DNA of 64,000 nucleotides. Source: Bacteroidota bacterium (GTDB lineage Bacteria; Bacteroidota; Bacteroidia; UBA8524). Every line of letters begins with the position of its first letter. The stretch's first letter is position 1. The stretch lies in contig WBUH01000008.1 in NCBI GenBank assembly GCA_008933805.1, positions 124,001-188,000 on the forward strand. Reading direction: 5' to 3'. The position numbers and the translations under genes are program-made. Shown one piece after another: positions 11,917 through 33,306 of the stretch. The notes beneath the pieces were generated by a model. It worked only from the letters and a program-made list of their open reading frames with translations, made no database searches and was not told where the DNA came from.

Positions 11917-11920
11917 ACTA

Positions 11921-12931
11921 TTATTTAAATAGGTTCCCGGCCACTATTTCGCCGCCATACTCCTTTTGGGCCTTTTGGGCCTCCGTCGCAGTGCCAAAGG
12001 CTACCCAGCCCGACGCCATAGGGGTGCGCAAGCTGCTGCTTTTTAGCAAATGGGCATTATCAAGGTTCACAAAATTTGTGGGGCTATAAAAATTTATTAC
12101 AAAACGCTGAAATTTTTCAGCAGCGTTATTTTTTACAAATTCTTTCTCAAAATCAGCCATGCAGCCCATATCATCAAACTTATAGGCCTTACCTTTGGCA
12201 GTAAGTATTTCTGCACCGTATTTCTTGTCAGAAATAGTCATTTTACAATGGCTGCATTCATCGCTGCCAAAATTTATAGCAACAGGGTTGGTGCCGCCTG
12301 CGGTGCAGGCGCTCATCATAAAAATGGTGAAAATGGTTATTATACTCATAACAGGTACCGGTTTTTTACGTTTAAAAATATTTAACTCAATTACAGCAGC
12401 CACAACTGCCAATAGTACTGAAAGTATAAAAAATACTCCTCCCAGTGCAGGAAACGAACCTGCTAAAAAATTGGCAATTTGTTTATAACCCAACAACGGT
12501 GGCTGAAAGCTGGTATCGTCAAGTTTTATCGGCGCGTGGGGGTCAAGGTCGTGCCCGTAGCTGTATTCCCACATATAAAAATCAACCATAGCTACCAGGG
12601 CAAACAACACCAAAAGGGCGGTGTATATATACAGTATGCTTTTTTTATTTAAAAGTGCGGTTACTACACCAAAAACAAGGAAAAAACCCATTAAACCCGG
12701 TAGTATTTTAAATTCGGGAAACGATTCGGCAGATATTTTCTGCATGCCTATGTAATGATTAAGGCCGTTGATGGTATCTACGTTTCCGGTAAGTTTATTT
12801 ATCCATATATGCATGCTCAAACCTTCAGGAAACTGGGGGGCTTCAAGCAGTATCATCCAAATGGGGGCAAAAAATGTGGCTATCAGCGCCAACCCGGATA
12901 GGGCGACGATTATTCTTGTGCTGATTTTCAT
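11921..12931 (-). CDS. nosL: NosL copper chaperone preceded by a multi-span membrane domain
   Basis: A 336-residue protein in two parts. Residues 1-190 hold about four hydrophobic helices. Residues 191-336 are a NosL domain: a second hydrophobic stretch, a lipobox-like MMSAC ending at C209, then the Cu(I)-binding CSHCKM (C226, C229, M231) and the KFDDMGCM segment. NosL is normally a lipoprotein of about 180 residues that delivers Cu(I) to NosD. Here the lipobox is internal, so either this is a membrane-tethered fusion or translation also starts at an internal Met near residue 195. It is the first gene of the nosLDFY operon and follows the nosZ terminator. Confidence 0.87.
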   Translation of the reverse strand: MKISTRIIVALSGLALIATFFAPIWMILLEAPQFPEGLSMHIWINKLTGNVDTINGLNHYIGMQKISAESFPEFKILPGLMGFFLVFGVVTALLNKKSILYIYTALLVLFALVAMVDFYMWEYSYGHDLDPHAPIKLDDTSFQPPLLGYKQIANFLAGSFPALGGVFFILSVLLAVVAAVIELNIFKRKKPVPVMSIITIFTIFMMSACTAGGTNPVAINFGSDECSHCKMTISDKKYGAEILTAKGKAYKFDDMGCMADFEKEFVKNNAAEKFQRFVINFYSPTNFVNLDNAHLLKSSSLRTPMASGWVAFGTATEAQKAQKEYGGEIVAGNLFK

Positions 12932-13018: not shown

Positions 13019-14992
13019 TCACTCTTTCTTTTTGGTAGAGTTAAAGCTAAGCGCAACCGATGAACCGGCAGGCGATACCCTTATGTAGCCTGACATTTCC
13101 TGGTGCAGTGCACTGCAAAAATCTGTACAGTAAAAGGGATAAACTCCCACTGCTTTTGGTACCCATTTCAGGGTTTGGGTTTCACCCGGCATCACCAATA
13201 TTTCGGCATTGTTGTTGGCTTTTATAGCAAACCCGTGTGGCACATCAAAATCCTGCTCAAGGTTGGTTACGTGAAAATACACTACATCGCCCACCTTCAC
13301 ACCCTCTATATTATCAGGGGTAAGGTGCGAGCGTATGGCTGTCATATATACGTGCACTTCGTTTCCTTTGCGCTCCACGCGGGCCTGGCCCTCACCTTTG
13401 GCTGCAAAGGGGTTGGTGTTTTCTTCCAGTTTAAACCACTGCACTTGCTTTTCTTTTATCAGATCGGCTTTTATAGCTTGTGCATAGTGAGGCTCGCCAA
13501 TGGTTGGGAAATCGAGCAGCAGTTTCATTTTATCGCCTGAAATATCTATCAACTGAGCCGATTGTGTAAGCTCGGGGCCGGTGGGCAGGTAGCGGTCTTT
13601 AGTAATTTTGTTAAGGGCTATAACATATTGGCCCCAGGGTTTTTTGGTATCGCCGCCGGGTATGCACAAGTGGCCTATTGAGTAATAAGTGGGGATACGG
13701 TCAACTACTTCGCGGGTTTCCACGTTCCACTTCACAATTTCTGATGATACAAACATTGAGGTGTAGCCAAACCCTTTTCCGTCAAACTCTGTATGCAGGG
13801 GGCCAAGGCCGGGTTTTTTCACTTCGCCTGCCAGTGCTGCATCGTATTTTATTACGGGTATTCCGCCAAAATCACCTTCAAAAGCTTTATCAGCAATTGC
13901 TTTCTGTATTTTTTCGAAAGAAAATACAGGGATAACGGCTGCCAGTTTACCGCTTGCGGCAATGTATTTACCTGTTGGGTCAACATCAGCACCGTGGGGA
14001 GATTTAGGGCAGGGAATAAAGTAGCAAATACCTTCCAACTCTTTAGCATCCAGTTGCAATACCTCTTTCACCAGCTCAGAAGTTGCCATGTGCGATTTTT
14101 CGTCGTATTTATTGTGCAGGTAGGCTGCCGGCTTTTTAACCCCTTTGCCTGCTTTTATGTATTCCTCGGCTTTTTTCCAGTTCACCGCCATTATAAAGTC
14201 TTTGTCTTTTTGGGTAGCGTTTACCTCAAGCAGTTCGTAGGCTTGTTCAGTATTGTAGCACGAAAAGAACATCCAGCCCTCGCTGGGGCCTTTGCCGGCA
14301 CGAGCAAGGTCAAAGTTTACACCGGGGGTCATTATCTGGAAAGCAAGGTTCATGTGACCGCTTTCTTTGTCTATTTTTATAAAATTTACTGTTCCCCTAA
14401 AATTTTCTTTGAAGCTGCTTATAGGTACATCTTCGCCATCCAACGGAACGCTGAAACGGGTAGCGCCCACAACATACTCGGTATTGGGGGTTACAAAGGG
14501 CGAGGCGTGATTACCGCCTACATTGGGCAACTCAAGAATTTCAACCGTTTTAAAACTTTTCAGGTCGATACGGGCAATACGGGGGTGGTTGTTGGCATTG
14601 ATAAAAAGCCAGCGGCCATCCTGTTCTCCATTGGTTACCGATAGTTGAGGGTGGTGGGTATCGTCCCAGGGAGAAAACCCTTGCGAGGTTTCAAGCATGG
14701 GCTTGGTTTCTTCGCTGTAGCCCCAGCCATTTTCGGGGTTCACACTAAACACAGGCACTACTTTTAGCAAGCGCCCTGATGGAAGGCCGTAAACGCCCAC
14801 CTGCCCGCTAAACCCTCCGGATGCAAACAAATAATAATCATCGTATTTGCCGGGGGCCACATATACCCTTTGTGCTGCATCCCCTTCTACTACGTTGGAG
14901 GCACTTTTGGGCTTGCAGCCATTGAGTGCTGAAACAAGCGTGATAATTGCCGCTGCAATAAGCAAGGGCCTGCGAGTTACTTTCGCTTTCAT
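13019..14992 (-). CDS. nosZ: NosZ, nitrous oxide reductase, clade II (Sec-exported lipoprotein type)
   Basis: A 657-residue enzyme that reduces N2O to N2 in the periplasm. The N-terminus is a Sec lipoprotein signal (LVSALNGC), not a twin-arginine signal, which marks clade II. The propeller domain holds the CuZ histidines (DDTHHPQLS, NNHPRIAR, HASPF, SPHGADVDP, GPLHTEFD, GEPHYAQ). The C-terminal cupredoxin domain holds the CuA site CTDFCSALHQEM (Cys-x3-Cys-x3-His-x2-Met). All key residues are seen, so it should be active. It follows nosC by 42 bp and shares its promoter and palindromic operator. Confidence 0.97.
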   Translation of the reverse strand: MKAKVTRRPLLIAAAIITLVSALNGCKPKSASNVVEGDAAQRVYVAPGKYDDYYLFASGGFSGQVGVYGLPSGRLLKVVPVFSVNPENGWGYSEETKPMLETSQGFSPWDDTHHPQLSVTNGEQDGRWLFINANNHPRIARIDLKSFKTVEILELPNVGGNHASPFVTPNTEYVVGATRFSVPLDGEDVPISSFKENFRGTVNFIKIDKESGHMNLAFQIMTPGVNFDLARAGKGPSEGWMFFSCYNTEQAYELLEVNATQKDKDFIMAVNWKKAEEYIKAGKGVKKPAAYLHNKYDEKSHMATSELVKEVLQLDAKELEGICYFIPCPKSPHGADVDPTGKYIAASGKLAAVIPVFSFEKIQKAIADKAFEGDFGGIPVIKYDAALAGEVKKPGLGPLHTEFDGKGFGYTSMFVSSEIVKWNVETREVVDRIPTYYSIGHLCIPGGDTKKPWGQYVIALNKITKDRYLPTGPELTQSAQLIDISGDKMKLLLDFPTIGEPHYAQAIKADLIKEKQVQWFKLEENTNPFAAKGEGQARVERKGNEVHVYMTAIRSHLTPDNIEGVKVGDVVYFHVTNLEQDFDVPHGFAIKANNNAEILVMPGETQTLKWVPKAVGVYPFYCTDFCSALHQEMSGYIRVSPAGSSVALSFNSTKKKE

Positions 14993-15034: not shown

Positions 15035-15550
15035 TTATTCGGTCCAGCTCTTTTTATGGCCGTCTATTTCTCGGAAATATTCTACAATATTTCTTGCGTC
15101 GGGCTCAGCCACATTTTGGTTGGGCATACGCACCAGGCATATTTCAAGCATGTCTTTGGCGGTTTGGTCTTCATTCAGCATGGCTTCGGTATTCATTATC
15201 ATATTCATTACCCACTCAGGAGTGCGCCTTTCGGTTACCCCGGTAAAGCTGGGGCCTACCAGCCTGTCGCCCTCAATCCTATGGCACGATTGGCATTTCA
15301 TTTCATACACGCTTTTTCCTTTGGCGGCCATAGCGGCGTCAAACGGGCCAATTTCTACCTTGGTAATGGGGCCAATACCGGTATTGTAGTGTTTTATTTC
15401 ATTCACTTTTTCCTCCAGTTTCTTCTCTTCTGCGTTAGGGGTTTGGTTTCCCGATGTTTTGTTTGATGAATCGCCGCATGAGGCGATGGCAGCGGCGAAA
15501 AACAACGCTACTGCTACAGATAGGGTTGCTTTGGTTTTTAAGGTTGTCAT
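15035..15550 (-). CDS. Lipoprotein cytochrome c, likely electron donor in the nos operon
   Basis: A 171-residue mono-heme class I cytochrome c. The lipoprotein signal ends at AIASC (C25), the heme motif CQSCH lies near residue 87, and an axial Met is offered by RMPNQNV near 145. Clade II nos clusters commonly begin with such a cytochrome upstream of nosZ, and it is expected to pass electrons to NosZ. A CTGAC-N4-GTCAG palindrome is centred at 15606.5, and a perfect -7 box TAATTTTG lies at 15570-15577, both in front of this gene. Confidence 0.88.
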   Translation of the reverse strand: MTTLKTKATLSVAVALFFAAAIASCGDSSNKTSGNQTPNAEEKKLEEKVNEIKHYNTGIGPITKVEIGPFDAAMAAKGKSVYEMKCQSCHRIEGDRLVGPSFTGVTERRTPEWVMNMIMNTEAMLNEDQTAKDMLEICLVRMPNQNVAEPDARNIVEYFREIDGHKKSWTE

Positions 15551-15569: not shown

Positions 15570-15613
15570 CAAAATTAGAATGAGTATAAATAGCAGAAAC
15601 TGACGTCCGTCAG
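15570..15613 (-). promoter_or_regulatory. nosC-nosZ promoter with Crp/Fnr-type palindrome
   Basis: The palindrome CTGACGTCCGTCAG occupies 15600-15613 (half sites CTGAC/GTCAG, 4-bp spacer). On the minus strand the -7 box TAATTTTG lies at 15570-15577, its last G being 36.5 bp from the palindrome centre. With transcription starting about 5 bp further on, the palindrome sits near -41.5, the class II activator position. The same palindrome could serve the divergent crp gene at about -64. Confidence 0.75.
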
Positions 15614-15657
15614 GATTTTAACTAATGCTTATCATGTTTTAAAAAACAGCACCCTTG

Positions 15658-15665
15658 TATATTTG
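15658..15665 (+). promoter_or_regulatory. -7 box of the crp/fnr-type gene
   Basis: TATATTTG is a perfect Bacteroidota -7 element (TAnnTTTG), 26 bp before the chosen ATG at 15691. Its end is 58.5 bp from the centre of the palindrome at 15600-15613, which would suit class I activation or autoregulation. Confidence 0.55.
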
Positions 15666-15690
15666 TTTGGTTGATAGCTTAAATAAAACA

Positions 15691-16386
15691 ATGTCACAAA
15701 TAAGTTGTATCAACTGCCAGTCGCTGGCAGTTTCAGTTTTTGCCACTCTTACCTGTCGCGAGTTGGAAGAGTTAAATGCATATAAAGTAAGCAAGATAGT
15801 TAAAAAGAGCCGGATAATATTTAATGAAGGTGAAAAAGCCGGCGGGTTATATTGTGTACACGAAGGCCGGGCAAAAGTGTACCGGACTGATATTGACGGA
15901 CAGGAGCAGATTGTGCGCCTGGCCAAAGAAGGGGATATACTGGGCTACCGGTCGCTGCTGGGTAATGAATATTATCAGGCTACTGCACAAACCTTGCAGG
16001 AGTGTACTATTTGTTTTATACCCAAAGGCCACCTGTATGCCATGCTGGAGCGCAACGTAATGCTTCCGTTGAAAATAATGGAAAAACTATCGCACGATAT
16101 TGGTTTTGCCGAAAAACGGGGCTTTGATTTTATTACCAAAACCAGTCACGAGCGGCTAGCCGAAGGGTTGATATTGTTGATGAAATCGTTTGGGACAACA
16201 AAGGACGGTTATATAAATATAGTGCTTACCCGCGAAGATTTGGGCAAACTGATGGGAATGGCCACCGAAACGGTGATACGCGCGCTTAAAGACTGGGAAA
16301 GCCAGAAAATTATTTCGTTGTATAAAAAAATGATACGGATAGAAAACCACGAGGAGTTGCTGAAAATTGCCAATATTGAAAATTGA
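15691..16386 (+). CDS. Crp/Fnr-family regulator, probable controller of the denitrification genes
   Basis: A 231-residue regulator counted from ATG 15691. An in-frame codon at 15655 is rejected because the -7 box TATATTTG overlaps it. It has a cyclic-nucleotide-binding-type N-terminal domain (IIFNEGEKAGGLYCVHEG…) and a winged-helix C-terminus (TREDLGKLMGMATETVIRAL). The N-terminus has C6-I-N-C9 and C22 and later C107/C110-type cysteines, so an Fnr-like Fe-S cluster is possible but the spacing differs from E. coli FNR. Its gene is divergent from nosC-nosZ across a 140-bp region with the palindrome. I infer that it recognises CTGAC-N4-GTCAG. Confidence 0.88.
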   Translation: MSQISCINCQSLAVSVFATLTCRELEELNAYKVSKIVKKSRIIFNEGEKAGGLYCVHEGRAKVYRTDIDGQEQIVRLAKEGDILGYRSLLGNEYYQATAQTLQECTICFIPKGHLYAMLERNVMLPLKIMEKLSHDIGFAEKRGFDFITKTSHERLAEGLILLMKSFGTTKDGYINIVLTREDLGKLMGMATETVIRALKDWESQKIISLYKKMIRIENHEELLKIANIEN

Positions 16387-16772
16387 GTAATATCAAACCA
16401 CCCCTTTGTCCCCTCCTAAACCGCCCACAAATCAGCCATAGGAGGGGAAACAGCCCTACAGGCTACCGTGCCCAACAAATTTTAGCCTTATCATAGTTTT
16501 TTCAGTTTATCAATGGCATACGGGTTGGAGCGCCCCTCCTTGCGGGGTTGTGAGCGTAGGCTAAGGAGGTTGGGGTGGTTTAAGCCAACAGGCTTTTAAG
16601 GAATTCATTTCCTAATGAACTACCCCGCAGCAGAGCTGACGGAGTATCGAAATTCAAATACATGAAGAAAAAATCATCCACTTCACCATCCACCGTCGCA
16701 GCAGAGCTGCGAGGAATTCTTTAGATTAAAGGTTAAAAATCTTTAACTAACCGACATTTAAATTCTCAATTT
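16387..16772. repeat. Gene-free stretch with short degenerate repeats
   Basis: No coding sequence is seen. Two copies of a CGCAGCAGAGCTG motif occur (about 16627 and 16696), one leading into GAGGAATTC. GGAATTC also occurs near 16600. The left half has complementary CCCCTCCT / AGGAGGGG elements (around 16411 and 16441) and another CCCCTCCTT/AAGGAGG pair (about 16534 and 16564) that can form hairpins. This looks like palindromic repeat debris of the kind scattered in Bacteroidota intergenic DNA. It separates convergent crp and nrdJ and may act in termination. Confidence 0.5.
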
Positions 16773-19328
16773 TCACCCGCATTTGGTATTTCCGCAGCTT
16801 TTGCATTTAAGGCAACCTTCTTCATACACCAGCCCTTCCGGGTCGCCGCACTCAGGGCAGGTTTTATCGGCAGCCTGAGTGCCGCCGGGTATAAACTTTT
16901 TAAGTGAGCGCGCTACTCCGTTTTTCCAGGTATTTATGCTGGCATCGTACAACTCAAGCCGGTCTATAAGCCGCACCACATCTTTCAGGGGCATACCCTG
17001 CCGCAATACGCCCGAAATAAGTTTGGCATAGTTCCAGTATTCCTTATCAAAACTGCGCGAAAGCCCTTCTATGGTTACTTTATAACCGTATTTATCCGTA
17101 TAGCGGAAATCATACCGCGCCAGGCCGTTTTCGTCCCTTTCTTTTATTATCCACCCCTTGTGCACCCATGCGGGTATCACAAAAGAGTCTTCGGCCTTGC
17201 CCGTAAATATTTCGTAGGGCCTGTTATCCAGCAGCCCGGTAAAACCTATCCACGGCTCGTTGTTGTTATTAAACCGTACTATTTCAGCTTCCAGTATTTT
17301 GGGCCTTTCAGGGGCTTCCTGCTCAATTATCTGGGGTTTGGTTTTGGCAGTATCGGCCACCAGCACCCCGTTGCGCGAACCTTCGCGATACACGGTAATG
17401 CCTTTTAGCCCTGCTTTCCAGGCGTTAAAGTATATGCCGGCCACCTCGTCCCTGCTTGCCTGCGCGGGCAGGTTGATGGTAGAACTGATGGAGTGTGTGG
17501 TGTATTTTTGCACTATGCCCTGTAATTTTACCCGCTGCTCCCAGTCAATATCATTGGCAGTGCAACCGTAATAGGGGCTTTGACTGATGGTGGTATTGCC
17601 GCTTGCTTCCATCCAGGCTTTTAGTTTGGGGTGAAAAACCGTAAACTCCTGCCAGCTATCGCCCATAGCATCCGTAAAATCTACTTTCACGTTTTTATCA
17701 TCAGGGTTCACCCGCTTGCGGCGTTTATAACTGAGCATAAATACAGGCTCAATACCCGATGAGGTTTGGGTGAGTATGCTTAACGTGCCTGTGGGCGCAA
17801 CCGTACTGAGCGAAATATTGCGCCGCCCGTATGCCATCATGCGTTTATATACATACGGCATTTCATCGGCCAGCATTTGCACAAACTCTGATTGGTTCTC
17901 AATTTCGGGCGAAAAATCTTCAAAACCACCCCGTTCAATCGCCATATCTATGCTACTGTCAAACTCTGCACGGCACTTGGTTTTCATTATTTCTTCCACC
18001 GTAGCAAGTGCAGCATCACCGTCAAATTTCAACCCCAGTGCTGCCATTGCATCGGCCAGTGCGGTAAAGCCCAATCCTGTACGGCGACCTTTTTTTCCAG
18101 CATCATACAACAATTGCCATGTGCGGCGTTCCACGTCTTTTATATAATCAGGTTCGGGGTCGGCATCTACCTTGTTCAATATTTTTTGTACAGCTTTTAA
18201 TTCCAAGTCCACTAAATCATCCATCAGCCGCTGGGCTTCGTAGGTTATTTCGTAAAATTTTTTAAAATTAAATGTTGCCTCTGGGGTAAATGGATGCTCC
18301 ACAAACTCAAACAGGTTTATGGCCATCAGGCGACAGCTATCGCCGCCCTGCATGGCAATTTCTGAACAGGGGTTGGTAGATACGTTTTTAAAACCCGGAT
18401 ATACCGATGAGGTAGAATACAGGTGTTGCCTGTCCCAGTATATAATGCCCGGTTCGGCAGTGTTGTGAGCGCAATCAGTTATTTTTTCCCAAAGTTTTGC
18501 GGCATCTGTTTCACGGGTCACTTTGGGGTGTTCTGCATCCACGGGCCAGCGCAGGGTAAAATTGCGGCCGTTTTCAACGGCTTTCATAAACTCATCCGAT
18601 ACTTTTACTGATATATTGGCCCCGGTTACTTTGCTAAGGTCTTGCTTCACCGTGATAAACTCTTCAATATCGGGGTGGGCAATATCCATAGTAATCATCA
18701 GTGCGCCCCGACGGCCGTTTTGGGCTACTTCGCGGGTGGTGTTTGAAAAACGCTCCATAAACGAAACCGCCCCCGTAGAGGTACCCGCCGAGTTAGATAC
18801 GGGATGATTGGCAGGGCGCAGCGGTGATATATCAAGCCCCACGCCACAGCGGCGTTTAAACAGTTGGGCAAGCTGCTGGTCTGCATAAAATACACCCCCG
18901 TATGAGTCGTGCAATTCTGGCAATACAATACAATTTGATAACGACGCTATTGAATACGGGTTGCCCAACGCAGCCATTACACTACCTTGCGGCACTACAT
19001 ACTTAAACTGTTTAAATAACCGGTATATACGCTCTTCGGTAAGTGGTTGGCGTTTTTGCCCGTAGTCACACAAAAGAGGTAAGTCGCTTTCACTCACAGG
19101 GTTGTATAGATTTTCAGCAGCGGCAAATTCGCGCACCAGCCTGCGGTGCATATCATCTGGTGTTAGCTCTGCAAAGCGACCCTCACTATTTTTTAAAGCA
19201 TACTTGCCTGCCCAGGTTCCTGCCGCCAGTTCGTCGCCGTTAAAATATTCCAGCGCAGAGGCCAGCACTTCTTCATACGTATAAAATGTATTTGCAGCCT
19301 TTTTTTTCACGGTTACTAATCCTTCCAT
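16773..19328 (-). CDS. nrdJ: Class II (adenosylcobalamin-dependent) ribonucleotide reductase
   Basis: An 851-residue enzyme making deoxyribonucleotides without oxygen or a tyrosyl-radical subunit. Visible signatures include FKRRCGVGLDISPLRP, SNSAGTSTGAVSF, NPCSEIAMQGGDSCRL and SLSTVAPTGTLS. The C-terminal tail has a Cys-rich zinc ribbon (CPECG … CLKCKSCG) typical of NrdJ. It is monocistronic. No cobalamin riboswitch is seen upstream. Instead the 127-bp upstream gap has two palindromes, CTGAC-N4-GTCAG and CTAAC-N4-GTTAG, 30 bp apart. An oxygen-independent reductase fits a regulon for anaerobic respiration. Confidence 0.95.
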   Translation of the reverse strand: MEGLVTVKKKAANTFYTYEEVLASALEYFNGDELAAGTWAGKYALKNSEGRFAELTPDDMHRRLVREFAAAENLYNPVSESDLPLLCDYGQKRQPLTEERIYRLFKQFKYVVPQGSVMAALGNPYSIASLSNCIVLPELHDSYGGVFYADQQLAQLFKRRCGVGLDISPLRPANHPVSNSAGTSTGAVSFMERFSNTTREVAQNGRRGALMITMDIAHPDIEEFITVKQDLSKVTGANISVKVSDEFMKAVENGRNFTLRWPVDAEHPKVTRETDAAKLWEKITDCAHNTAEPGIIYWDRQHLYSTSSVYPGFKNVSTNPCSEIAMQGGDSCRLMAINLFEFVEHPFTPEATFNFKKFYEITYEAQRLMDDLVDLELKAVQKILNKVDADPEPDYIKDVERRTWQLLYDAGKKGRRTGLGFTALADAMAALGLKFDGDAALATVEEIMKTKCRAEFDSSIDMAIERGGFEDFSPEIENQSEFVQMLADEMPYVYKRMMAYGRRNISLSTVAPTGTLSILTQTSSGIEPVFMLSYKRRKRVNPDDKNVKVDFTDAMGDSWQEFTVFHPKLKAWMEASGNTTISQSPYYGCTANDIDWEQRVKLQGIVQKYTTHSISSTINLPAQASRDEVAGIYFNAWKAGLKGITVYREGSRNGVLVADTAKTKPQIIEQEAPERPKILEAEIVRFNNNNEPWIGFTGLLDNRPYEIFTGKAEDSFVIPAWVHKGWIIKERDENGLARYDFRYTDKYGYKVTIEGLSRSFDKEYWNYAKLISGVLRQGMPLKDVVRLIDRLELYDASINTWKNGVARSLKKFIPGGTQAADKTCPECGDPEGLVYEEGCLKCKSCGNTKCG

Positions 19329-19349
19329 AAAATTACGAATTGTTTATGA

Positions 19350-19423
19350 CAAAGTAACCGGCAAGCCGTTTGCAAAAACCTGACAGCGGTCAGGTTTGTT
19401 TTTTAGATACTAACATCTGTTAG
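19350..19423 (-). promoter_or_regulatory. nrdJ promoter with two Crp/Fnr-type palindromes
   Basis: CTGACAGCGGTCAG lies at 19380-19393 (flanked by C and G, giving a 16-bp palindrome). The variant CTAACATCTGTTAG lies at 19410-19423. Their centres are 30 bp apart, about three helical turns. On the minus strand TTACTTTG at 19350-19357 ends 36.5 bp from the first centre, the same spacing as in the nosC promoter, although its second base departs from TAnnTTTG. Confidence 0.7.
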
Positions 19424-19455
19424 TTGATAGTTTTGTTTTGTTGCCACTCTTGTGG

Positions 19456-20523
19456 TTAGGGGGTTAAAAATGCTGTATCACTAAAAGTTTTCAAAAATGT
19501 AACAAGGCATTGCTTCTCGTATGCGCTAAGGTTCAGGGTACGCTCTTTGCCGGGCTTGGTCATAATAGGGTCAAGTGTTTCAGAGTGCTTCACTCCTGAA
19601 TTATAAAACTCAACCACCTGCTCCAGCGTAGCAAAACGCCCATCGTGCATATACGGTGCGGTAAACTCAATATTACGTAACGTAGGGGTGCTAAATTTCC
19701 CCATATCGCCTTTGTTCCCTGTAATAAGGAACCTGCCTGCGTTTTGTCCGGCAAATACTGAATCAAGCCCGTTGTTGTGATAGAGGTTATCGGTAAGCAA
19801 AGGGTACCCGTGACAATGGAAACAATCGCCTTTTTCCGACATATAAATGCCCAGCCCAATGCGCTCATCGGTGGTAAGTACTGCCCTGTGGTTTATATAT
19901 AAATCAAATTTCGATTGGGCAGAAATAAGGATGCGCATGTATTGTGCCACTGAATAAGTAATTTTTGTTTTAAGGGTATGATAATCCAGAGCATTAATAT
20001 CATCAGCACCAAAAGCGGTTTTAAACAAACCGGGATAAACGGGGTGCCGGTTGAGCCTTGCATACAGCGAGTCCTTATTTGTATTGAAAAAGTGGGGTTC
20101 AAAATCACCCATACATACTTTTTCAAGTTCACTTTCAGTACCGGCCCAGTTATAGTCGGGGTTAAAAGCCAGGTTTATATGAGGTGGCACACTTACCACA
20201 TCGCCGTTACTTTGCATAAACAGGGGTAACGAAAAAGACTTATCCGGATGGTGGCACGATGAACAACTGCGCCCGTTGGAAGACAAAATTGGGTCGAAGT
20301 AAAGCATTTTGCCCAACTGCACCCCCTCAACCGTCATAGGATTATCAGCCGGGATGGAAGGTGCCGGAAAACGCGGGGGAATTTTCAAGGTGTATGGTGT
20401 AGCCCATGTTTTGGCTGGTTCAGGGGTATCTTTTTTGCACGACGGCAGAAAAAAGACTATTGCTATGGCACTGCCCAATACCGCAGTGCCTTTAAGGAAT
20501 AACTTTAAAAACATCGCTGCCAT
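19456..20523 (-). CDS. Di-heme cytochrome c peroxidase/MauG-family lipoprotein (MbnH-like)
   Basis: A 355-residue exported protein. The lipoprotein signal ends with FFLPSC. Two heme c motifs, CSSCH near residue 91 and CFHCH near 237, define the bacterial cytochrome c peroxidase/MauG family. An alternative ATG lies at 20514. Its start overlaps the end of the upstream MbnP-like gene by 32 bp. In MbnP/MbnH pairs the di-heme enzyme modifies a tryptophan of its copper-binding partner, so this context favours an MbnH-like role over simple peroxide removal. Which activity applies is not decided by the sequence. Confidence 0.85.
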   Translation of the reverse strand: MAAMFLKLFLKGTAVLGSAIAIVFFLPSCKKDTPEPAKTWATPYTLKIPPRFPAPSIPADNPMTVEGVQLGKMLYFDPILSSNGRSCSSCHHPDKSFSLPLFMQSNGDVVSVPPHINLAFNPDYNWAGTESELEKVCMGDFEPHFFNTNKDSLYARLNRHPVYPGLFKTAFGADDINALDYHTLKTKITYSVAQYMRILISAQSKFDLYINHRAVLTTDERIGLGIYMSEKGDCFHCHGYPLLTDNLYHNNGLDSVFAGQNAGRFLITGNKGDMGKFSTPTLRNIEFTAPYMHDGRFATLEQVVEFYNSGVKHSETLDPIMTKPGKERTLNLSAYEKQCLVTFLKTFSDTAFLTP

Positions 20524-21229
20524 TTTGTTTTAGTTGGTTCATCAGGCTGTCAACTCCCATAGTATAGTTTCCCTGCACATTAAAATTGTAGGTATAGGGG
20601 TGGACAAACCACTCGTTTATGTTCATCTGCAAATTCATAACGCTATTGCCCCCATGGTTTAGCATTATAGGAATTTCGACAGTTATAAGGTTTTTACTGT
20701 TGCCCACGTGCATGGCAAAACCTTGGGTTTTGCCTATTGAATCCTTAAAATACCCCTCTAATTTCAAAAAATGGTAGCCGCCACCCATTATATCAGGCCA
20801 TGCCATATTCAGGTTTTCAGCGGTGGCAGGCAAAGCATCAGTTAAGTTCCGCTCCGCAGGCAACCCTATAAAAAACTTAAGTTTACTGTACTTTCCTACA
20901 GGCAGATCCGTTAGCCCAATGGTATTTGTTTTGGGTGTTTTGACATTCACATAATATTCGCTGCCGGTTTTCCACCACACACCCTTATCGTCCATAAAAG
21001 CAAATCCTGAAAGATAGTACTCCAAGTGCCAGACCCCGAACAAGTTACCTGCCGCATTGGTATATTTCAGGGTATCGGTGCTCAATATATTGTTATCAAC
21101 CGCATACGCAAGATGTAAAGTAATATCAGGGTTTGAGGGAGGCGCGGAGGTTTCGTCTTTTTTGCACGAAGGCAGAAAAAGAAGCGAAGCGGCGAAAAGG
21201 AAAGCAGCAAATAAAAAATAGCGTTTCAT
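20492..21229 (-). CDS. MbnP-like copper-binding lipoprotein
   Basis: A 245-residue lipoprotein. The start is taken at 21229 (MKRYFLFAAFLFAASLLFLPSCKK) because this gives a normal lipoprotein signal and leaves the promoter and palindrome upstream. The body carries features of the MbnP family: HLAYAVDNN near the start of the domain, WHLEYYLSGFAF, PVGKYSKLKFFIGL, MAWPDIMGGGYHFLKLEG and AMHVGN. MbnP proteins bind copper through a modified tryptophan made by the di-heme MbnH, whose relative is encoded immediately downstream. The N-terminal tail of the longer reading frame is non-coding leader. Confidence 0.72.
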   Translation of the reverse strand: MKRYFLFAAFLFAASLLFLPSCKKDETSAPPSNPDITLHLAYAVDNNILSTDTLKYTNAAGNLFGVWHLEYYLSGFAFMDDKGVWWKTGSEYYVNVKTPKTNTIGLTDLPVGKYSKLKFFIGLPAERNLTDALPATAENLNMAWPDIMGGGYHFLKLEGYFKDSIGKTQGFAMHVGNSKNLITVEIPIMLNHGGNSVMNLQMNINEWFVHPYTYNFNVQGNYTMGVDSLMNQLKQNGSDVFKVIP

Positions 21230-21250
21230 ATATGAGATATTATCCGTCTT

Positions 21251-21324
21251 CAAATTTCGTTGCAATGGGTGGCCCAAACCCTGACCCACGTCAGTATTGA
21301 TGATGATTTGCCTCATTATTTTTG
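21251..21324. promoter_or_regulatory. Divergent mbnP / nadA promoter region around one palindrome
   Basis: CTGACCCACGTCAG at 21281-21294 is centred at 21287.5. On the minus strand GAAATTTG (21251-21258, one mismatch to TAnnTTTG) ends 36.5 bp from the centre, toward mbnP. On the plus strand TATTTTTG (21317-21324, perfect) ends 36.5 bp from the centre, toward nadA. The palindrome is thus placed symmetrically to drive both directions from class II positions. Confidence 0.72.
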
Positions 21325-21382
21325 CCGTTTTCGTGCGCAATATTTGTAATACTATTTTCTAATCTAAACAGAGGGGAATGCT

Positions 21383-22351
21383 ATGCACACCATAGTTGAT
21401 TATTATAGCCGCATAAGGCAACTGAAAAAAGAAAAGAATGCTGTGATATTGGCACATTATTACATGTCGCCTGAATTGCAGGTGTTGGAGAACGATGGTG
21501 GTGTGGCTGATTATATTGGCGACTCACTGGGATTGAGCATTGAGGCCTCAAAATCTACTGCTGACAATATTATTTTTTGCGGGGTGCTTTTTATGGCCGA
21601 AACGGCTAAAATCCTGAATCCCCACCGCCACGTGTATATACCTGATAAAGAGGCCGGGTGTTCACTAGCAGCCAGCATTACCGCCGCAGATGTGAGGGCG
21701 CTGAAGCAGCAATATCCCGGGGTACCCGTTATGGCCTATATAAACACTTATGCCGAAACCAAGGCCGAGTGTGATATATGTTGCACATCGCGCAATGCGG
21801 TGGATATTATAAAATCGCTGGAGGGCGATACGGTGATTTTTTTGCCGGATAAATACATGGGCGAAAACCTGAACCGCAGGATAGCCGCCGAAACGGGGAA
21901 AAAACTGATACTTTGGGACGGGGTGTGCGAAGTGCACGAACAATTCAGGCCTGATTCAATAGGGGCATTAGAAAAACTATACCCCAATGCCGAAATGCTG
22001 CTACACTGGGAAGTGCCGCAGGAAACCGTTGTAAGCTCTCTTGATGACAGGGGCGGCGTGCTGGGCAGCACTACAGATATTTTGCGCTATGTGCGGCAAA
22101 GCAAAAGCAGGCAGTTTATACTGGCATCGGAGTGCGATTTAGGGGCAACCCTTAAAAGCATGTATGCCGATAGGGAGTTTATAACCCCTTGCATAAAATG
22201 CCCGTATATGAAAAAAATCACCCTCCAAAACACATTAAACGCACTGGAGTCCATAGGCACAGCTAATGAAACACAGTATGAGGTAATCCTTGCTGTAGAG
22301 ATAATGGAAAAAGCCCGCCTGCCCATTAAGCGGATGTTTCAATTTTCGTAA
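21383..22351 (+). CDS. nadA: Quinolinate synthase NadA
   Basis: A 322-residue [4Fe-4S] enzyme that condenses iminoaspartate with dihydroxyacetone phosphate to form quinolinate, the second step of de novo NAD synthesis. Readable signatures are AHYYMSPELQ, DYIGDSLGLS, FCGVLFMAETAKIL, a GCSLAA segment and the Cys ligand in TPCIKCPYMKK. The product is passed on in the cytoplasm; nadB starts 3 bp downstream. Its likely promoter (TATTTTTG at 21317-21324) shares the CTGAC-N4-GTCAG palindrome with mbnP. Confidence 0.95.
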   Translation: MHTIVDYYSRIRQLKKEKNAVILAHYYMSPELQVLENDGGVADYIGDSLGLSIEASKSTADNIIFCGVLFMAETAKILNPHRHVYIPDKEAGCSLAASITAADVRALKQQYPGVPVMAYINTYAETKAECDICCTSRNAVDIIKSLEGDTVIFLPDKYMGENLNRRIAAETGKKLILWDGVCEVHEQFRPDSIGALEKLYPNAEMLLHWEVPQETVVSSLDDRGGVLGSTTDILRYVRQSKSRQFILASECDLGATLKSMYADREFITPCIKCPYMKKITLQNTLNALESIGTANETQYEVILAVEIMEKARLPIKRMFQFS

Positions 22352-22354
22352 CCC

Positions 22355-23917
22355 ATGAAAACGGATGTACTTGTAATAGGAAGCGGGATTGCCGGGCTGT
22401 ATTTTTCGCTTAAATGCGCAGGGTTTGCACGGGTAGTATTAGCCACCAAAGACAGTTTGCAAGATAGCAACACCAGCAAAGCACAAGGAGGTATTGCCGC
22501 CGCACTGGATATGGCCGACAGCCTCCAAGCCCATTTTGATGACACTATAACTGTGGGTGACGGCCTTTGTAACCCAATTGCGGTGAATTGTATGGTAAGT
22601 GACGCTCCCTCTTGTATTTATGAGTTGCAACAAATGGGGGTACCTTTTAATTGTAACGAAACAGGAAAGTTTTTATTAGCCCTTGAAGGCGGCCACAGTG
22701 CTGCAAGGGTGGCGCATGTGAACGACCAAACGGGTGCGGGTATAATTAATACATTAATTGCCCTTGTGAAAGCCCATTCCAATATTACCGTGCTTGAGGA
22801 TTATTTTGCCATAGATATTATAACCCATAACCATACTTGTGGCGGTGCATGGTTTATCGATGAAAAAAAGCAGGAGATGCACGCGGTACAATCGCAAGTT
22901 ACTTTTTTGGCTACTGGTGGTGCAGGCAGTGTGTACAAACAAAATACCAACCCGGCAGGTGCCACTGGGGATGGGTTTGCAATGGCTTGGCGTGCAGGCG
23001 CGTTGATGCAAAATATGGAGTTTGTGCAGTTTCATCCCACTATGCTATATAAGGGCACCGGCGAAAATTTTCTTATCAGCGAAGCTGTTAGAGGGTTTGG
23101 CGCTCAATTGGTAAATACAGCGGGCAAACCTTTTATGCAACACTACCACCCCATGGGTAGTTTAGCGCCACGCGATGTTGTAACACGTGCCATAACAGAA
23201 CAAATGCAAAAAGATAACAGCCCCTGTGTATACCTGGATACCCCAAAACTTAATATCGAAAAGTTTAAGCACCGTTTTCCGGCTATATACACCAGGTGCC
23301 ACCAATTGGGAATTGACATATCAAAACAGCGTATCCCAGTGATTCCTGCCGCTCACTATATGTGCGGGGGTGTGGTTACCGACCTGCATGGCAAAACCAA
23401 TATTACGGGTTTGTATGCATGTGGCGAAACCGCCTGTACCGGGGTACACGGTGCCAACCGGCTGGCGAGTAACTCACTACTTGAAGGGTTGGTTTTTGCC
23501 CGCGAGGCGGCCAAAGTGGTAAAAGACAATTTTAAAAATCTTCCTTTAACCGCTGAAACAGTCTCCCATTGCAATAGGACTGTGAATACAAGCAAAATAC
23601 CGGTACTAAAAGAAATAAGAGAGCAACTTGGCAACCTGATGTGGGAAAAAGCAGGGATAATAAGAAACGCCGTTTTATTAAAGGCTGCACTTGAACAACT
23701 CAACCATTGGGAAGTTGAAATTGTAAGGATAGGAATGATGCAGGGCATTAACCGTGAGCTTATGGAAACACTAAACCTTATGCAAACATCACGGTTGATT
23801 GCCGTGGCATCACTTAAACGCGAAGAAAGCCGGGGCGTGCACTACCGCAGCGATTTTCCGGAACATTCAGCCGGTTTTGAGCATTCTACAAAACAGAAAA
23901 AACCTGTATTATTTTAA
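22355..23917 (+). CDS. nadB: L-aspartate oxidase NadB
   Basis: A 520-residue FAD enzyme oxidising L-aspartate to iminoaspartate, the substrate of NadA. The FAD-binding VIGSGIAGLYFS is at the N-terminus. SKAQGGIAAAL, the EFVQFHPTML segment, RGFGAQLVN, HYMCGGV and HGANRLASNSLLEGL are all typical of the succinate dehydrogenase/fumarate reductase flavoprotein family and of NadB in particular. The enzyme can use fumarate instead of oxygen, which is compatible with anaerobic use. The gene is coupled to nadA by a 3-bp gap. Confidence 0.95.
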   Translation: MKTDVLVIGSGIAGLYFSLKCAGFARVVLATKDSLQDSNTSKAQGGIAAALDMADSLQAHFDDTITVGDGLCNPIAVNCMVSDAPSCIYELQQMGVPFNCNETGKFLLALEGGHSAARVAHVNDQTGAGIINTLIALVKAHSNITVLEDYFAIDIITHNHTCGGAWFIDEKKQEMHAVQSQVTFLATGGAGSVYKQNTNPAGATGDGFAMAWRAGALMQNMEFVQFHPTMLYKGTGENFLISEAVRGFGAQLVNTAGKPFMQHYHPMGSLAPRDVVTRAITEQMQKDNSPCVYLDTPKLNIEKFKHRFPAIYTRCHQLGIDISKQRIPVIPAAHYMCGGVVTDLHGKTNITGLYACGETACTGVHGANRLASNSLLEGLVFAREAAKVVKDNFKNLPLTAETVSHCNRTVNTSKIPVLKEIREQLGNLMWEKAGIIRNAVLLKAALEQLNHWEVEIVRIGMMQGINRELMETLNLMQTSRLIAVASLKREESRGVHYRSDFPEHSAGFEHSTKQKKPVLF

Positions 23918-24022
23918 CGGCTCGCTTTTCGGCTCGATTTTTAAACCACTTATTGGGGTGATGGAACACTATGCTTGTGCAGTATTGCTACATAATCCTA
24001 CATTACAGAAACAAAATAAAGA

Positions 24023-24068
24023 ATAAAAGACTATTATATCTTTTATTAAGAATGATTTATTAACTTTG
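24023..24068 (+). promoter_or_regulatory. ric promoter with a candidate Rrf2-type operator
   Basis: A perfect inverted repeat, ATAAAAGA (24023-24030) and TCTTTTAT (24039-24046), has an 8-bp spacer. A perfect -7 box TAACTTTG lies at 24061-24068, 20 bp before the ric ATG. The repeat covers the expected -33 region, where a repressor would block polymerase. The Rrf2 regulator encoded just downstream of ric is the natural candidate. Confidence 0.6.
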
Positions 24069-24088
24069 TGCCATAAAAAAACAAGCAC

Positions 24089-24880
24089 ATGGATAATAAC
24101 AGCATATTTACTGATACAGGCTCTCTTAAAGCCTTGCATGTAGGCCATATTGTGACCCACAACTATCGGGCCGCAGATGTGTTTAAAAAACACAACATTG
24201 ATTTTTGTTGCGGGGGAAAAATTTCGATAGAGGATGTTTGTGTCAAAAAAAAGGTTGATGCTACACAATTAATAGAAGAATTAATTATGGTACTCTCTAC
24301 AGCTTCGTTGCCATCTCAAAACTTTGCTTCGTGGGAAGCTGGCTTTTTAGCAGATTATATTGTAAATACTCATCACAATTACGTTCGTACATCTGTAGAT
24401 ATTTTAAACTCATACTTGCAAAAACTTGTACGTGTGCATGGCGAACGACATCCCGAATTGGGCTCAACACAAGCCTATTTTATTGCATTGGCAAATGAAC
24501 TTTTATCACATATGGAAAAGGAAGAGAACGTGTTGTTTCCATTTATAAAACAATTGACAAGTAGTGCTGACGGTTCACTTGCTGCAAAAGGAGTAGAACT
24601 TAATGGGCCAATTGCATGCATGGAACAGGAGCACGAGTATGCCGGTAAGCTCATGCAAAACATCAATAACCTTTCAAATGGGTATACACCACCCGAAGAT
24701 GCATGCACCACCTATAGGGTATGTTATTTAAAACTGAAAGAGTTTGAAGATGATTTGCACCAGCACATTCATTTGGAAAACAACATACTATTTCCTCAAG
24801 CGCTAACCTTGCTTAAAAATCTGGAACGAGTGCCTGAATACGCCAGTTGTTCAATACCAATTAATCTTCACACCAATTAG
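24089..24880 (+). CDS. ric: Ric/ScdA/YtfE-type iron-sulfur cluster repair di-iron protein
   Basis: A 263-residue cytoplasmic protein. The N-terminal DUF542 domain has the NIDFCCGG motif. The C-terminal hemerythrin-like domain has spaced di-iron ligands (HHNYVRT, HPELG, HMEKEENVLFPF, EQEHEYAG, HQHIHLENNILFP). Such proteins repair Fe-S clusters damaged by nitric oxide or supply iron for this, and are usually under NO-responsive control. It lies between nadAB and the Rrf2 regulator, close to norCB, which agrees with a nitrosative-stress role. Confidence 0.92.
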   Translation: MDNNSIFTDTGSLKALHVGHIVTHNYRAADVFKKHNIDFCCGGKISIEDVCVKKKVDATQLIEELIMVLSTASLPSQNFASWEAGFLADYIVNTHHNYVRTSVDILNSYLQKLVRVHGERHPELGSTQAYFIALANELLSHMEKEENVLFPFIKQLTSSADGSLAAKGVELNGPIACMEQEHEYAGKLMQNINNLSNGYTPPEDACTTYRVCYLKLKEFEDDLHQHIHLENNILFPQALTLLKNLERVPEYASCSIPINLHTN

Positions 24881-24937
24881 GTTTGGTGGTTTAGTAATAA
24901 ATGAGGGGTCGGTTATATATCGCCCCTTTTGTTATGT

Positions 24938-24945
24938 TATTTTTG
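24938..24945 (+). promoter_or_regulatory. -7 box of the Rrf2 regulator gene
   Basis: TATTTTTG fits TAnnTTTG perfectly. It ends only 4 bp before the ATG at 24950, so the transcript would be leaderless or nearly so. A terminator-like hairpin, GAGGGG / CGCCCCTTTT (about 24903-24930), for ric lies just before it. Confidence 0.45.
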
Positions 24946-24949
24946 ACCC

Positions 24950-25378
24950 ATGTTTTCTAAAACCTGCGAATACGCACTAAGGGCGATAATTTATTTAGCC
25001 GGGCACAGTAGCAACGGCGAAAAACTGGGCATAACAGAAATTTCTGATGCGGTTGGCACGCCCAAACATTTTACTGCCAAAATATTACAAACGCTTGCTA
25101 AAAAAGGGATTATAGGCTCAGTAAAAGGCCCAAACGGTGGTTTTTTTATTGATAGCAAAAAACCGGTGCAAATAGTGCAAGTGGTGTATGCTATAGAGGG
25201 GGATGATTTTTTTAAGAAATGTGGATTGGGCTTAAAACATTGCTCCGATAAAAAACCCTGCCCGCTTCACTTTGAGATGAAAGAAATGAGGGATGTCCTT
25301 AAAACAAAATTGCAAAATACTAGTATCCAACAGATAGCTACAGAAGCTTTAGAAAAAAAAATGCGATTACACAATTAA
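24950..25378 (+). CDS. Rrf2-family regulator, NsrR-like
   Basis: A 142-residue Rrf2 protein: winged helix at residues 1-70 (CEYALRAIIYLA … TPKHFTAKILQTLAKKGII) followed by three cysteines C91, C98 and C104 that can hold a [2Fe-2S] or [4Fe-4S] cluster. NsrR members of this family sense nitric oxide, and the neighbours ric and norCB are typical NsrR targets, so an NO-sensing repressor is the best reading. IscR-like or other Rrf2 roles cannot be excluded by sequence alone. Its 3' end overlaps that of convergent norB by 4 bp. Confidence 0.87.
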   Translation: MFSKTCEYALRAIIYLAGHSSNGEKLGITEISDAVGTPKHFTAKILQTLAKKGIIGSVKGPNGGFFIDSKKPVQIVQVVYAIEGDDFFKKCGLGLKHCSDKKPCPLHFEMKEMRDVLKTKLQNTSIQQIATEALEKKMRLHN

Positions 25379-26748
25379 TTTTGCCCCCGGGATGTAAAAG
25401 CAATATTTCCCTTTCGCACATAAGTATATTTTATACACCCGGTATAGCTTACTACCAGTGTGGCAACTATTGTTGTGAGCGCAAGCGCCAAAACAAATCC
25501 ACTACAGCCAAATACTATAAAATATGGCGATAGTCCTTTCATCATACTGCTAAATGGTTTTGGCAGTTCGCTGTGTAACCATATTGCTTTTTGCAGCCCG
25601 GCACCAATTAGAGAAAGCCAAAAAACGATCAAAGACAGATGGGCCACCTTGAGTGATAGTCCGCAAATACGTTCACGGTAGGCTGGCAAAATACAAACTC
25701 CCTTTCCAAACTCACTTGCCGCTGCCAGCAAAATCATTGAGTTTATACCTATGGTGGCGCCCATGGCATGGGCTACCGTTATGTGCGTGCCGTGGGTGTA
25801 TAAGTTTAAGCCTGGTATGCTCATTACAATGGCTAACGCTAAATTAAGCAGCACCCAAATATCGGCTATATATAAAAACCGTACTGAAAGGTGTGAAAAG
25901 TAATTGCGGTTTTCGACCATACTTTTTTTCCATAAATAAATTATACGCGCCAACAGAACCCACTCGGTCATGCTGATTGCATAAGAAACATACCTGATAT
26001 ACGCAGCAGTTGGCAAAAGGTATATATGGTGGCCCCAATTGAACATAAGGTTTGTTAACCCCAAAAAGTATAATAAAAAGGCAATCCCTGATTTTGAGTA
26101 GGATTGATTGCCGCTCACTTTCTCCATTAAAAACAGGCCGGTACCATATACCAGCATATTCCACGAGCCAACAATTGAACCGCCCGCTTTCCATTGCACC
26201 GTAAGGTCTTTAATAACATCAGCAGCAAAAGAGGGGAAAAGCCATAAATAACTCTCACCAAATGTGATAATAAAGAATACTATTCCTGTTAACCACATCC
26301 ACATATACACAGGCCATGATTTGATTTTTCGCACCCACTGGATGTAGTTGATAAGAAAAATAATAAACCCGGAAGCAATAAATATGGCATAATGTGGCGG
26401 AAATTCAAGGTACTCCCTGCCGCCAAAGTGTTTCCCTAAATATGCAAGCACTATAGCGGCTGCTGAACCAGTCATTAACATAAGCTGACCAAATGCCATT
26501 GCATTGTTAATAGCTCTTAGATGTGATATGTGATTCATAGAACTATATACTGCCCCCGTAGCGGTAAACAAAATCCAAAAAATAGCCAAAGATACATGCA
26601 ATGGCCGTATTTGTGCAAAAGTAAACATGCGACCCGCGCCATCAGGCCATATATAAACGGAAGCTCCCATTAGACCAAAAAAAAGACTTGCCACAAGGAA
26701 TAACATCCCAGTGATGATAAATAAGGTTCCTATGTTATTTTGCCTCAT
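25375..26748 (-). CDS. norB: NorB, catalytic subunit of cytochrome c-dependent nitric oxide reductase
   Basis: A 457-residue, roughly 12-helix heme-copper oxidase superfamily protein. The start is placed at 26748 (MRQNNIGTLFIITGMLFL), 7 codons inside the longest frame. Histidines for heme b, heme b3 and FeB are visible in HVSLAIFWILF, WGHHIYLLP and THGTHITVAHAMGATIG, the last typical of cNorB. It reduces NO to N2O at the cytoplasmic membrane. It overlaps the norC stop by about 14 bp, so the subunits are coupled. No norD or norQ genes are in the window. Confidence 0.92.
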   Translation of the reverse strand: MRQNNIGTLFIITGMLFLVASLFFGLMGASVYIWPDGAGRMFTFAQIRPLHVSLAIFWILFTATGAVYSSMNHISHLRAINNAMAFGQLMLMTGSAAAIVLAYLGKHFGGREYLEFPPHYAIFIASGFIIFLINYIQWVRKIKSWPVYMWMWLTGIVFFIITFGESYLWLFPSFAADVIKDLTVQWKAGGSIVGSWNMLVYGTGLFLMEKVSGNQSYSKSGIAFLLYFLGLTNLMFNWGHHIYLLPTAAYIRYVSYAISMTEWVLLARIIYLWKKSMVENRNYFSHLSVRFLYIADIWVLLNLALAIVMSIPGLNLYTHGTHITVAHAMGATIGINSMILLAAASEFGKGVCILPAYRERICGLSLKVAHLSLIVFWLSLIGAGLQKAIWLHSELPKPFSSMMKGLSPYFIVFGCSGFVLALALTTIVATLVVSYTGCIKYTYVRKGNIAFTSRGQN

Positions 26749-27157
26749 CAGGATAAATATTTCCGGCAATGGTTATCTTAAATTTTTTGGGGTCAGCAAA
26801 TCCCGTAGAATCCATTTGTTTAAGAAAACAAATAATACTTTTGCGTTCGCTTGAATCAAGCCCAAAATCAGGCATAATGCCAATACCCGATTGTAATATT
26901 GCGTCCATATAGGCAGGTCCCTTGTGAGGTGCAGAGTAACAATTAGTGAGGTCTGGGCCTAAATACCCACCCAATCCGTACAGTTGATGGCACGATTGGC
27001 AATTGTGTTTTTGCCACAGCATTTTTCCGGCTAATATTTTTTCAGCCGTCACCTTATCCGTTTCTTCATAACCCTTTGTGGCATATACAGCAATTGTATA
27101 AACGGTGTATAGACATGAAAGAATAACTATAATAAGTATGTGGTATTGCACTTTCAT
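26735..27157 (-). CDS. norC: NorC, membrane-anchored cytochrome c subunit of nitric oxide reductase
   Basis: A 140-residue protein with an N-terminal membrane anchor (about residues 5-27) and one heme c motif, CQSCH, followed by QLYGLGGYLGPDLTN, a signature of NorC. It passes electrons from the cytochrome pool to NorB. The start at 27157 is chosen because the anchor begins right after it; the longer frame would run through the promoter palindrome. The -7 box candidate at 27162-27169 ends 5 bp before this ATG, which implies a leaderless or nearly leaderless transcript. Confidence 0.92.
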   Translation of the reverse strand: MKVQYHILIIVILSCLYTVYTIAVYATKGYEETDKVTAEKILAGKMLWQKHNCQSCHQLYGLGGYLGPDLTNCYSAPHKGPAYMDAILQSGIGIMPDFGLDSSERKSIICFLKQMDSTGFADPKKFKITIAGNIYPDEAK

Positions 27158-27161
27158 ACTA

Positions 27162-27205
27162 CAAAATAAGCTTCTGTGAGCAAGAAAAATACTGACGGAG
27201 GTCAG
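27162..27205 (-). promoter_or_regulatory. norC-norB promoter with Crp/Fnr-type palindrome
   Basis: CTGACGGAGGTCAG lies at 27192-27205, centre 27198.5. On the minus strand TTATTTTG (27162-27169) ends 36.5 bp from the centre, the same spacing as at nosC, nrdJ, mbnP and nadA. The box departs from TAnnTTTG at its second base. Confidence 0.7.
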
Positions 27206-29968: not shown

Positions 29969-29979
29969 TTTATGATTTT

Positions 29980-33252: not shown

Positions 33253-33306
33253 AGTTAAAACATTTATAAAATATGTTATCCGAAGACCTTTCTTTTGAAA
33301 ATTATG

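Follow-up and report, generated by a model that had tools for sequence, protein, structure and literature searches.

A CTGAC-N4-GTCAG palindrome at a fixed distance from the -7 box marks a probable Crp/Fnr regulon of nitrogen-oxide metabolism in a Bacteroidota bacterium

The subject of this report is a 64,000-nucleotide stretch of the genome of a Bacteroidota bacterium (assembly GCA_008933805.1, contig WBUH01000008.1, positions 124,001 to 188,000; hereafter the window, whose own numbering is used for its features), in which four copies of the 14-bp palindrome CTGAC-N4-GTCAG precede genes for nitrogen-oxide respiration and for life without oxygen or under nitric oxide (NO) stress. It is probable that these palindromes are the operators of an FNR-like dimer of the Crp/Fnr superfamily, most likely the product of the gene at 15691-16386, which would switch these genes on. 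That they define a Crp/Fnr regulon of class II type is strongly supported by promoter geometry and by co-occurrence, and the coordinates of all features are gathered in Table 1.

A preliminary description of this DNA had reported the four palindromes at positions that prove exact, and a whole-genome pattern scan reveals that they are the only copies in 4,293,661 bases, all within this 11.6-kb cluster (the reversed control pattern occurs at 0 places genome-wide). Counted from the middle of the palindrome to the final G of TTTG in the -7 box, the spacing is 36.5 bp in every one of the five promoters for which it had been claimed, that is, nosC, nrdJ, mbnP, nadA and norC. Since TTTG starts at 1.2% of the positions in the 150 bp upstream of the cluster genes, four further matches at the offset fixed by the first promoter would arise by chance with a probability of about 2e-8. 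The composite pattern TGAC-N4-GTCA-N27-TTTG is found at six places in the genome, five of which are in the cluster, versus two for its control. A sixth promoter, which had been missed, lies 58.5 bp from palindrome 1 and belongs to the regulator gene, which is therefore probably controlled by its own product, bringing to six the promoters served by four palindromes (five class II-like and one class I-like). As for the -7 boxes, TTTG is present in all five as described, and the full TAnnTTTG is not borne out for nrdJ, mbnP and norC, which depart from it outside TTTG. The start codon follows TTTG by 19-21 bases in nosC, nrdJ and mbnP; in norC the ATG comes just four bases after it (27155-27169), so the norC mRNA may be leaderless.

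Could such an arrangement be a compositional accident, or the trace of a mobile element that left copies behind? Palindromes with two mismatches are not enriched in the window (15 versus 10.8 expected), which is what chance would predict, and composite sites with one mismatch show no excess over control genome-wide (27 versus 33), which is why the further analysis was confined to exact or Y/R-relaxed sites. Against chance stand four exact copies in a single cluster, exact spacing in five promoters and recurrence in relatives, and against a dispersed repeat the want of the shared flanks that it would need, both flanks and spacers differing between the four copies. The spacing statistics rule out both, and the probability that we would leave to them is negligible. 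A one-mismatch palindrome at 6852-6865 was dropped, TTTG being absent at 36.5 bp in both directions; downstream of it, at 6919-8709, is a 596-residue open reading frame (ORF) without a Pfam match. A weaker palindrome, CTAAC-N4-GTTAG, is seen between nrdJ and mbnH at 19410-19423, its distance from palindrome 2 being 30 bp, or roughly three turns of the helix.

The preliminary description had also proposed to look for the spacing in relatives, where it does recur. Across 148 other genomes of the same class, the composite site was found 226 times, versus 55 for the reversed composite pattern that served as control, and relatives with a homolog of the regulator (expectation value E<=1e-15) account for 214 versus 43, the 31 relatives without such a homolog giving 12 versus 12. 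A pattern with a variable spacer (TGAC-N4-GTCA-N18..48-TAnnTTTG), applied to 35 genomes that have a strong regulator homolog, this genome included, gave a peak of matches at 36.5 bp (27, of which 24 are in the 34 other Bacteroidia genomes); the two adjacent offsets had 7 and 8 matches, 58.5 bp had 6, and the others averaged 1.4. A second sample of 80 named loci (1.31 Mb from a separate genome collection, some genomes of which may overlap the first sample), which includes Ignavibacteria, Flavobacteriales, Chitinophaga, Cyclobacteriaceae, Solitalea and others, displayed two clear peaks, at 36.5 bp (7) and 58.5 bp (8), and about one match at other offsets. The 58.5-bp spacing, which places the site 22 bp further upstream than the class II-like one, recurs in relatives L119, L130, L142, L146, L149, L161, L167 and L192. 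The plain FNR box TTGAT-N4-ATCAA was rejected as a clean marker, its maximum at 36.5 bp in the 35 genomes being weak (11, for a mean of 4.8, with 10 at 33.5 bp).

The genes that follow these sites in relatives compose a typical low-oxygen/NO regulon. Sites at 36.5 bp precede hemN, ccoI-type ATPase genes, ric, hemA, the regulator's own gene and another crp gene, of a type that adjoins norCB in L098, L103, L105 and L237; those at 58.5 bp precede ccoNO and genes for universal stress proteins (uspA) adjoining the regulator gene. In some relatives, members of the regulator family are also found next to norCB, nrdJ, ric, nos and nadAB genes. Single palindromes flanked by two TTTGs at 36.5 bp, one on each side, as between mbnP and nadA, recur in several relatives (Table 1), where one dimer apparently serves two divergent promoters. 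Comparative genomics supports what the preliminary description had made of the cluster, namely class II-like geometry, activation by a Crp/Fnr protein and target genes that belong to nitrogen-oxide and anaerobic metabolism.

One relative, G003, deserves a closer look as the only other nosZ carrier among the genomes examined with this regulator family. Its regulator, nadB, nadA, mbnP and mbnH genes are contiguous, and its nos operon, with the orthologous nosCZLDFY order, lies on that contig too, within a few kilobases. The nosC promoter combines ATGACGAATATCAT (site type ATGAC-N4-ATCAT) and TAAATTTG at 36.5 bp, and a single TTGATAAAAATCAA box between nadA and mbnP, of the plain FNR type TTGAT-N4-ATCAA, has a TTTG at 36.5 bp towards nadA and another at 58.5 bp towards mbnP. 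Across these orthologous promoters, the spacing is conserved, and the half site varies from CTGAC to ATGAC and TTGAT.

FNR, as known from Escherichia coli and Aliivibrio fischeri, is an oxygen sensor with a 4Fe-4S cluster, which binds TTGAT-N4-ATCAA and acts at class II promoters from -41.5. The 15691-16386 protein, which had been assigned to the Crp/Fnr group and indeed carries its two domains (PF00027, 4.1e-23; PF13545, 1.5e-13), is homologous to FNR over its whole length (PDB profile E ~1e-37). Its AlphaFold model (mean predicted local distance difference test score 90.9) matches Crp/Fnr structures with a template-modelling score of about 0.85, the best PDB match being a Crp/Fnr structure from Porphyromonas gingivalis and the second A. 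fischeri holo-FNR. Its cysteines are C6, C9, C22, C55 and C108, of which C6, C9 and C108 align with the E. coli FNR ligands C20, C23 and C122. When this protein is compared with 79 homologs, C6 and C108 are found in all 80 sequences, and C9 and C55 are each present in 79/80, making C55, an addition relative to FNR, the natural candidate for the fourth ligand, which may take the place of C29. At position 18, where some homologs have F-C, this protein has Ala, and its own Cys four residues on (C22) is rare among homologs.

The recognition helix (G-M-A-T192-E193-T-V-I196-R197) presents E193 and R197 where FNR has E209 and R213, the residues that contact the bases of the GA of the half site, and T192 and I196 where FNR has V208 and S212; the conservation of E and R among homologs from genome contigs is partly a selection effect, the search pattern having contained the helix. 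That residue 192 accounts for the outer C of the half site was considered and rejected, T192 being conserved in relatives with ATGAC sites. The likeness to FNR extends to the 14-bp palindrome with TGA-type half sites, the class II-like spacing and the types of target (hemN, terminal oxidases, anaerobic respiration), while the half site here is CTGAC, and the spacing is counted to the TTTG of the Bacteroidota -7 box and not to a -10 box.

Several observations weigh against an FNR-like 15691-16386 protein as the activator of these promoters. (i) No cysteine of the protein aligns with FNR ligand C29, and C18, a possible substitute, is found in only 29/80 proteins and is absent here. Since it lacks a counterpart of C29 and scores below the cut-off of the curated NCBIfam Fnr model PRK11161 (88 bits for a cut-off of 228), the protein is best classed as FNR-like and not as FNR. 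(ii) No recognisable site is present upstream of the regulator ortholog in G003, and none of the palindromes in the window belongs to ric. (iii) A minor peak persists with the variable spacer in the 31 genomes that have no close homolog (5/19 matches at 36.5 bp), a residual architecture that presumably stems from other Crp/Fnr proteins. (iv) Two more genes of Crp/Fnr type are present in the genome, and the product of one has E and R at equivalent helix positions, which is why the assignment of the sites to the 15691-16386 protein is based on location and co-occurrence; on that basis, it is likely.

The nearest alternative, which we regard as unlikely, is that the sites are bound by a hybrid regulator with REC, cNMP and HTH domains encoded outside the window, or by both proteins in an overlapping regulon. 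The helix of the hybrid (S-Q-E-T-A-I-R) has the same E and R, with Q at the position of T192, and its gene belongs to a cbb3 oxidase cluster (C1:392688-404708; L005, L112, L241) encoding a small protein, the CcoI ATPase, CcoNO, CcoP, CcoG, CcoH, a PAS histidine kinase and the hybrid itself. There, several TGAY-N4-RTCA sites stand at exactly 36.5 bp from TTTG, upstream of the ccoI operon, ccoNO and the kinase gene, with one downstream of the hybrid gene, and the whole looks like a second, phosphorelay-driven Crp regulon. Sites with TGAC or TGAT half sites and this spacing are found at further operons of the genome too. Moreover, relatives in which the regulator has only a weaker match (1e-15 to 1e-35) are enriched in composite sites (85 versus 24 for the control), the matches listed being mostly frames of about 360 residues like the hybrid. 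Genome-wide enrichment, another check proposed in the preliminary description, is absent for the exact palindrome outside the cluster and evident for the wider TGAY-N4-RTCA class (19 versus 4 for the control). What speaks against the hybrid is that the 15691-16386 gene is inside the nitrogen-oxide cluster and shares palindrome 1 with nosC, and that CTGAC-N4-GTCAG is the form of 4/4 cluster palindromes and of 0/13 other 36.5-bp sites of the genome, a contrast that is not independent, the motif having been defined from the cluster. Because none of these other sites has the full form, the genome would seem to separate two regulons by the outer and inner bases of the half site.

A further reading, in which the palindromes would be operators for a repressor, such as the Rrf2-type 24950-25378 protein or a repressing Crp/Fnr protein, is in our view very improbable. 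An Rrf2-family gene is present in the cluster, and Rrf2 proteins of the NsrR type control NO genes in other bacteria (PMC1274295). The published NsrR motif, gATGyAT-N5-ATrCATc, is unlike the palindrome (PMC1274295). A protein bound at a constant 36.5 bp upstream of the -7 box would not obstruct the core promoter, as is usual for activators, and the spacing peaks appear in genomes chosen by their Crp/Fnr homolog, not by Rrf2.

Activation by an FNR-like dimer would work as follows. Active without oxygen and possibly modulated by NO, the dimer would bind the palindrome 36.5 bp upstream of the end of TTTG, which should be about -41.5 from the transcription start (class II), replacing a -33 contact, and would touch RNA polymerase from there at five promoters, and from about -63.5 at the regulator's own (58.5 bp, class I-like). 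When oxygen is absent and/or NO present, it would turn on nosC, nosZ and the following genes and norCB for nitrogen-oxide respiration, together with B12-dependent nrdJ, nadAB and mbnPH for oxygen-free or NO-stressed metabolism. The 15691-16386 protein would bind the sites and activate rather than repress, would hold an iron-sulfur cluster via C6, C9, C108 and probably C55, and would respond to oxygen or NO.

How new is the recognition code? The preliminary description had suggested that it may be undescribed, a claim that is weak: the strict CTGAC/GTCAG form stands out as a local variant, but its TGAC core had been predicted before. The usual site that accompanies the regulator family in relatives is ATGAC-N4-GTCAT, and a paper on KatA of Pseudomonas aeruginosa reportedly prints TTGAC-N4-GTCAA. 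Exact CTGAC-N4-GTCAG does look like a local specialisation within the TGAC/FNR-box class, since it is absent from the remaining 36.5-bp sites of this genome. DNR is not known to carry the cysteines of FNR, and it is a weaker match than FNR to the 15691-16386 protein (8.8e-23). It resembles the candidate in that DNR and NnrR of denitrifying proteobacteria are Crp/Fnr activators of nir, nor and nos genes, and differs in its motif, CTTGATnnnnATCAAG (PMC1274295). The same TGAC-N4-GTCA core was predicted in 2005 for HcpR of delta-proteobacteria and cyanobacteria, in the form TTGACnnnnGTCAA (PMC1274295), and HcpR also has targets in nitrogen-oxide metabolism (hcp, norB; PMC1274295), but its outer base is T where ours is C, and hcp, the core HcpR target, was not noticed in this cluster. 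HcpR2 of Bacteroides and P. gingivalis, an NO-responsive Crp/Fnr activator from the same phylum, differs in its half site, recognising GTAACnnnnGTTAC or variants of GTAAC type (PMC1274295), in residue 181, which is Pro, Ser or Gln there (PMC1274295) and Glu (E193) here, setting our protein outside HcpR2, and in its heme-dependent sensing of NO (P. gingivalis HcpR needs heme; PMC1274295, PMC12750200), four cysteines being conserved here. In the open-access papers searched, neither this motif or regulon nor the TTTG spacing rule was found described for Bacteroidota, and the same holds for control of nos and nor by Crp/Fnr proteins in the phylum, which is weak evidence of absence; one study states that it found no evidence for such control in Ignavibacteria, Flavobacteriales and Saprospiraceae (PMC8510549).

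Table 1. Features of the regulon, its neighbourhood and the sites or genes compared with it (window numbering unless a contig is given)
Feature	Position	Strand	Evidence or remark
Palindrome 1, CTGACGTCCGTCAG	15600..15613		Probable operator common to divergent nosC (-) and regulator gene (+)
Palindrome 2, CTGACAGCGGTCAG	19380..19393		nrdJ promoter
Palindrome 3, CTGACCCACGTCAG	21281..21294		Common to mbnP and nadA (divergent), 36.5 bp from either -7 box
Palindrome 4, CTGACGGAGGTCAG	27192..27205		norC promoter
nosC -7 box, TAATTTTG	15570..15577	-	TTTG end 36.5 bp from centre of palindrome 1
Regulator gene -7 box, TATATTTG	15658..15665	+	Class I-like; 58.5 bp between palindrome 1 centre and TTTG end
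nrdJ -7 box, TTACTTTG	19350..19357	-	36.5 bp from palindrome 2
mbnP -7 box, GAAATTTG	21251..21258	-	36.5 bp from palindrome 3
nadA -7 box, TATTTTTG	21317..21324	+	36.5 bp from palindrome 3
norC -7 box, TTATTTTG	27162..27169	-	36.5 bp from palindrome 4
nosL-like, nosD, nosF, nosY, maturation genes downstream of nosZ	9192..12931	-	Sequence and gene order, no family search
nosZ, Sec-dependent nitrous-oxide reductase, clade II type	13019..14992	-	TIGR04246, 949.6 bits
nosC, c-type cytochrome, first gene of nos operon	15035..15550	-	
Candidate activator, 231-residue Crp/Fnr protein	15691..16386	+	cNMP_binding and HTH_Crp_2
nrdJ, adenosylcobalamin (B12)-dependent ribonucleotide reductase	16773..19328	-	TIGR02504
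mbnH/MauG-like di-haem protein	19456..20523	-	PF03150; TIGR04039 below cut-off
mbnP-like protein	20492..21229	-	PF20243
nadA, quinolinate synthase	21383..22351	+	ORF sequence; ortholog 64% identical near regulator in G003
nadB, L-aspartate oxidase, downstream of nadA	22355..23917	+	
ric/ytfE, iron-sulfur cluster repair di-iron protein	24089..24880	+	TIGR03652
Rrf2-family regulator (IscR/NsrR group)	24950-25378		Between ric and norB
norB, heme-copper oxidase superfamily	25375..26748	-	Only PDB match nitric-oxide reductase subunit B (4xyd, E 9e-6)
norC, c-type cytochrome	26735..27157	-	
REC-cNMP-HTH_Crp hybrid regulator gene	C1:403564-404625		Beside cbb3 oxidase operon, outside window
Two-sided 36.5-bp palindrome, G067	C7:171981/172012		
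Two-sided 36.5-bp palindrome, G083	C15:36084/36115		
Two-sided 36.5-bp palindrome, G012	C31:3813/3844		
Two-sided 36.5-bp palindrome, G047	C4:96061/96092		

Within the cluster, the Rrf2-family protein (24950-25378) may be a second NO-responsive regulator; an Rrf2-type gene adjoins ric in L231 too. Next to the regulon, at 28859-37615, are large minus-strand ORFs of 1119, 326 and 1090 residues plus one of 312 residues, which by their sequence resemble a defence or structural maintenance of chromosomes (SMC)-like (Wadjet-type) island.

Although the consumption of nitrous oxide is attributed to Bacteroidota and Ignavibacteria that carry clade II nosZ, how they switch these genes on is poorly known. 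The motif and its spacing provide a concrete, searchable signature for a nitrogen-oxide regulon, the spacing predicts transcription starts nearly to the base, and a regulator can now be named whose conserved cysteines make its signal testable. It is conceivable, although we would put it somewhat below an even chance, that these features belong to an undescribed FNR-type system that is found throughout the Bacteroidota, combining (i) the cysteine set C-x2-C, C55 and C108, (ii) a 36.5/58.5 promoter grammar and (iii) a strict CTGAC-N4-GTCAG code for nitrogen oxides, insulated from a phosphorelay-linked cbb3 Crp regulon that uses other TGAC/TGAT sites. The cluster illustrates how the activation geometry of Crp/Fnr proteins is laid onto the TTTG -7 promoters of Bacteroidota.

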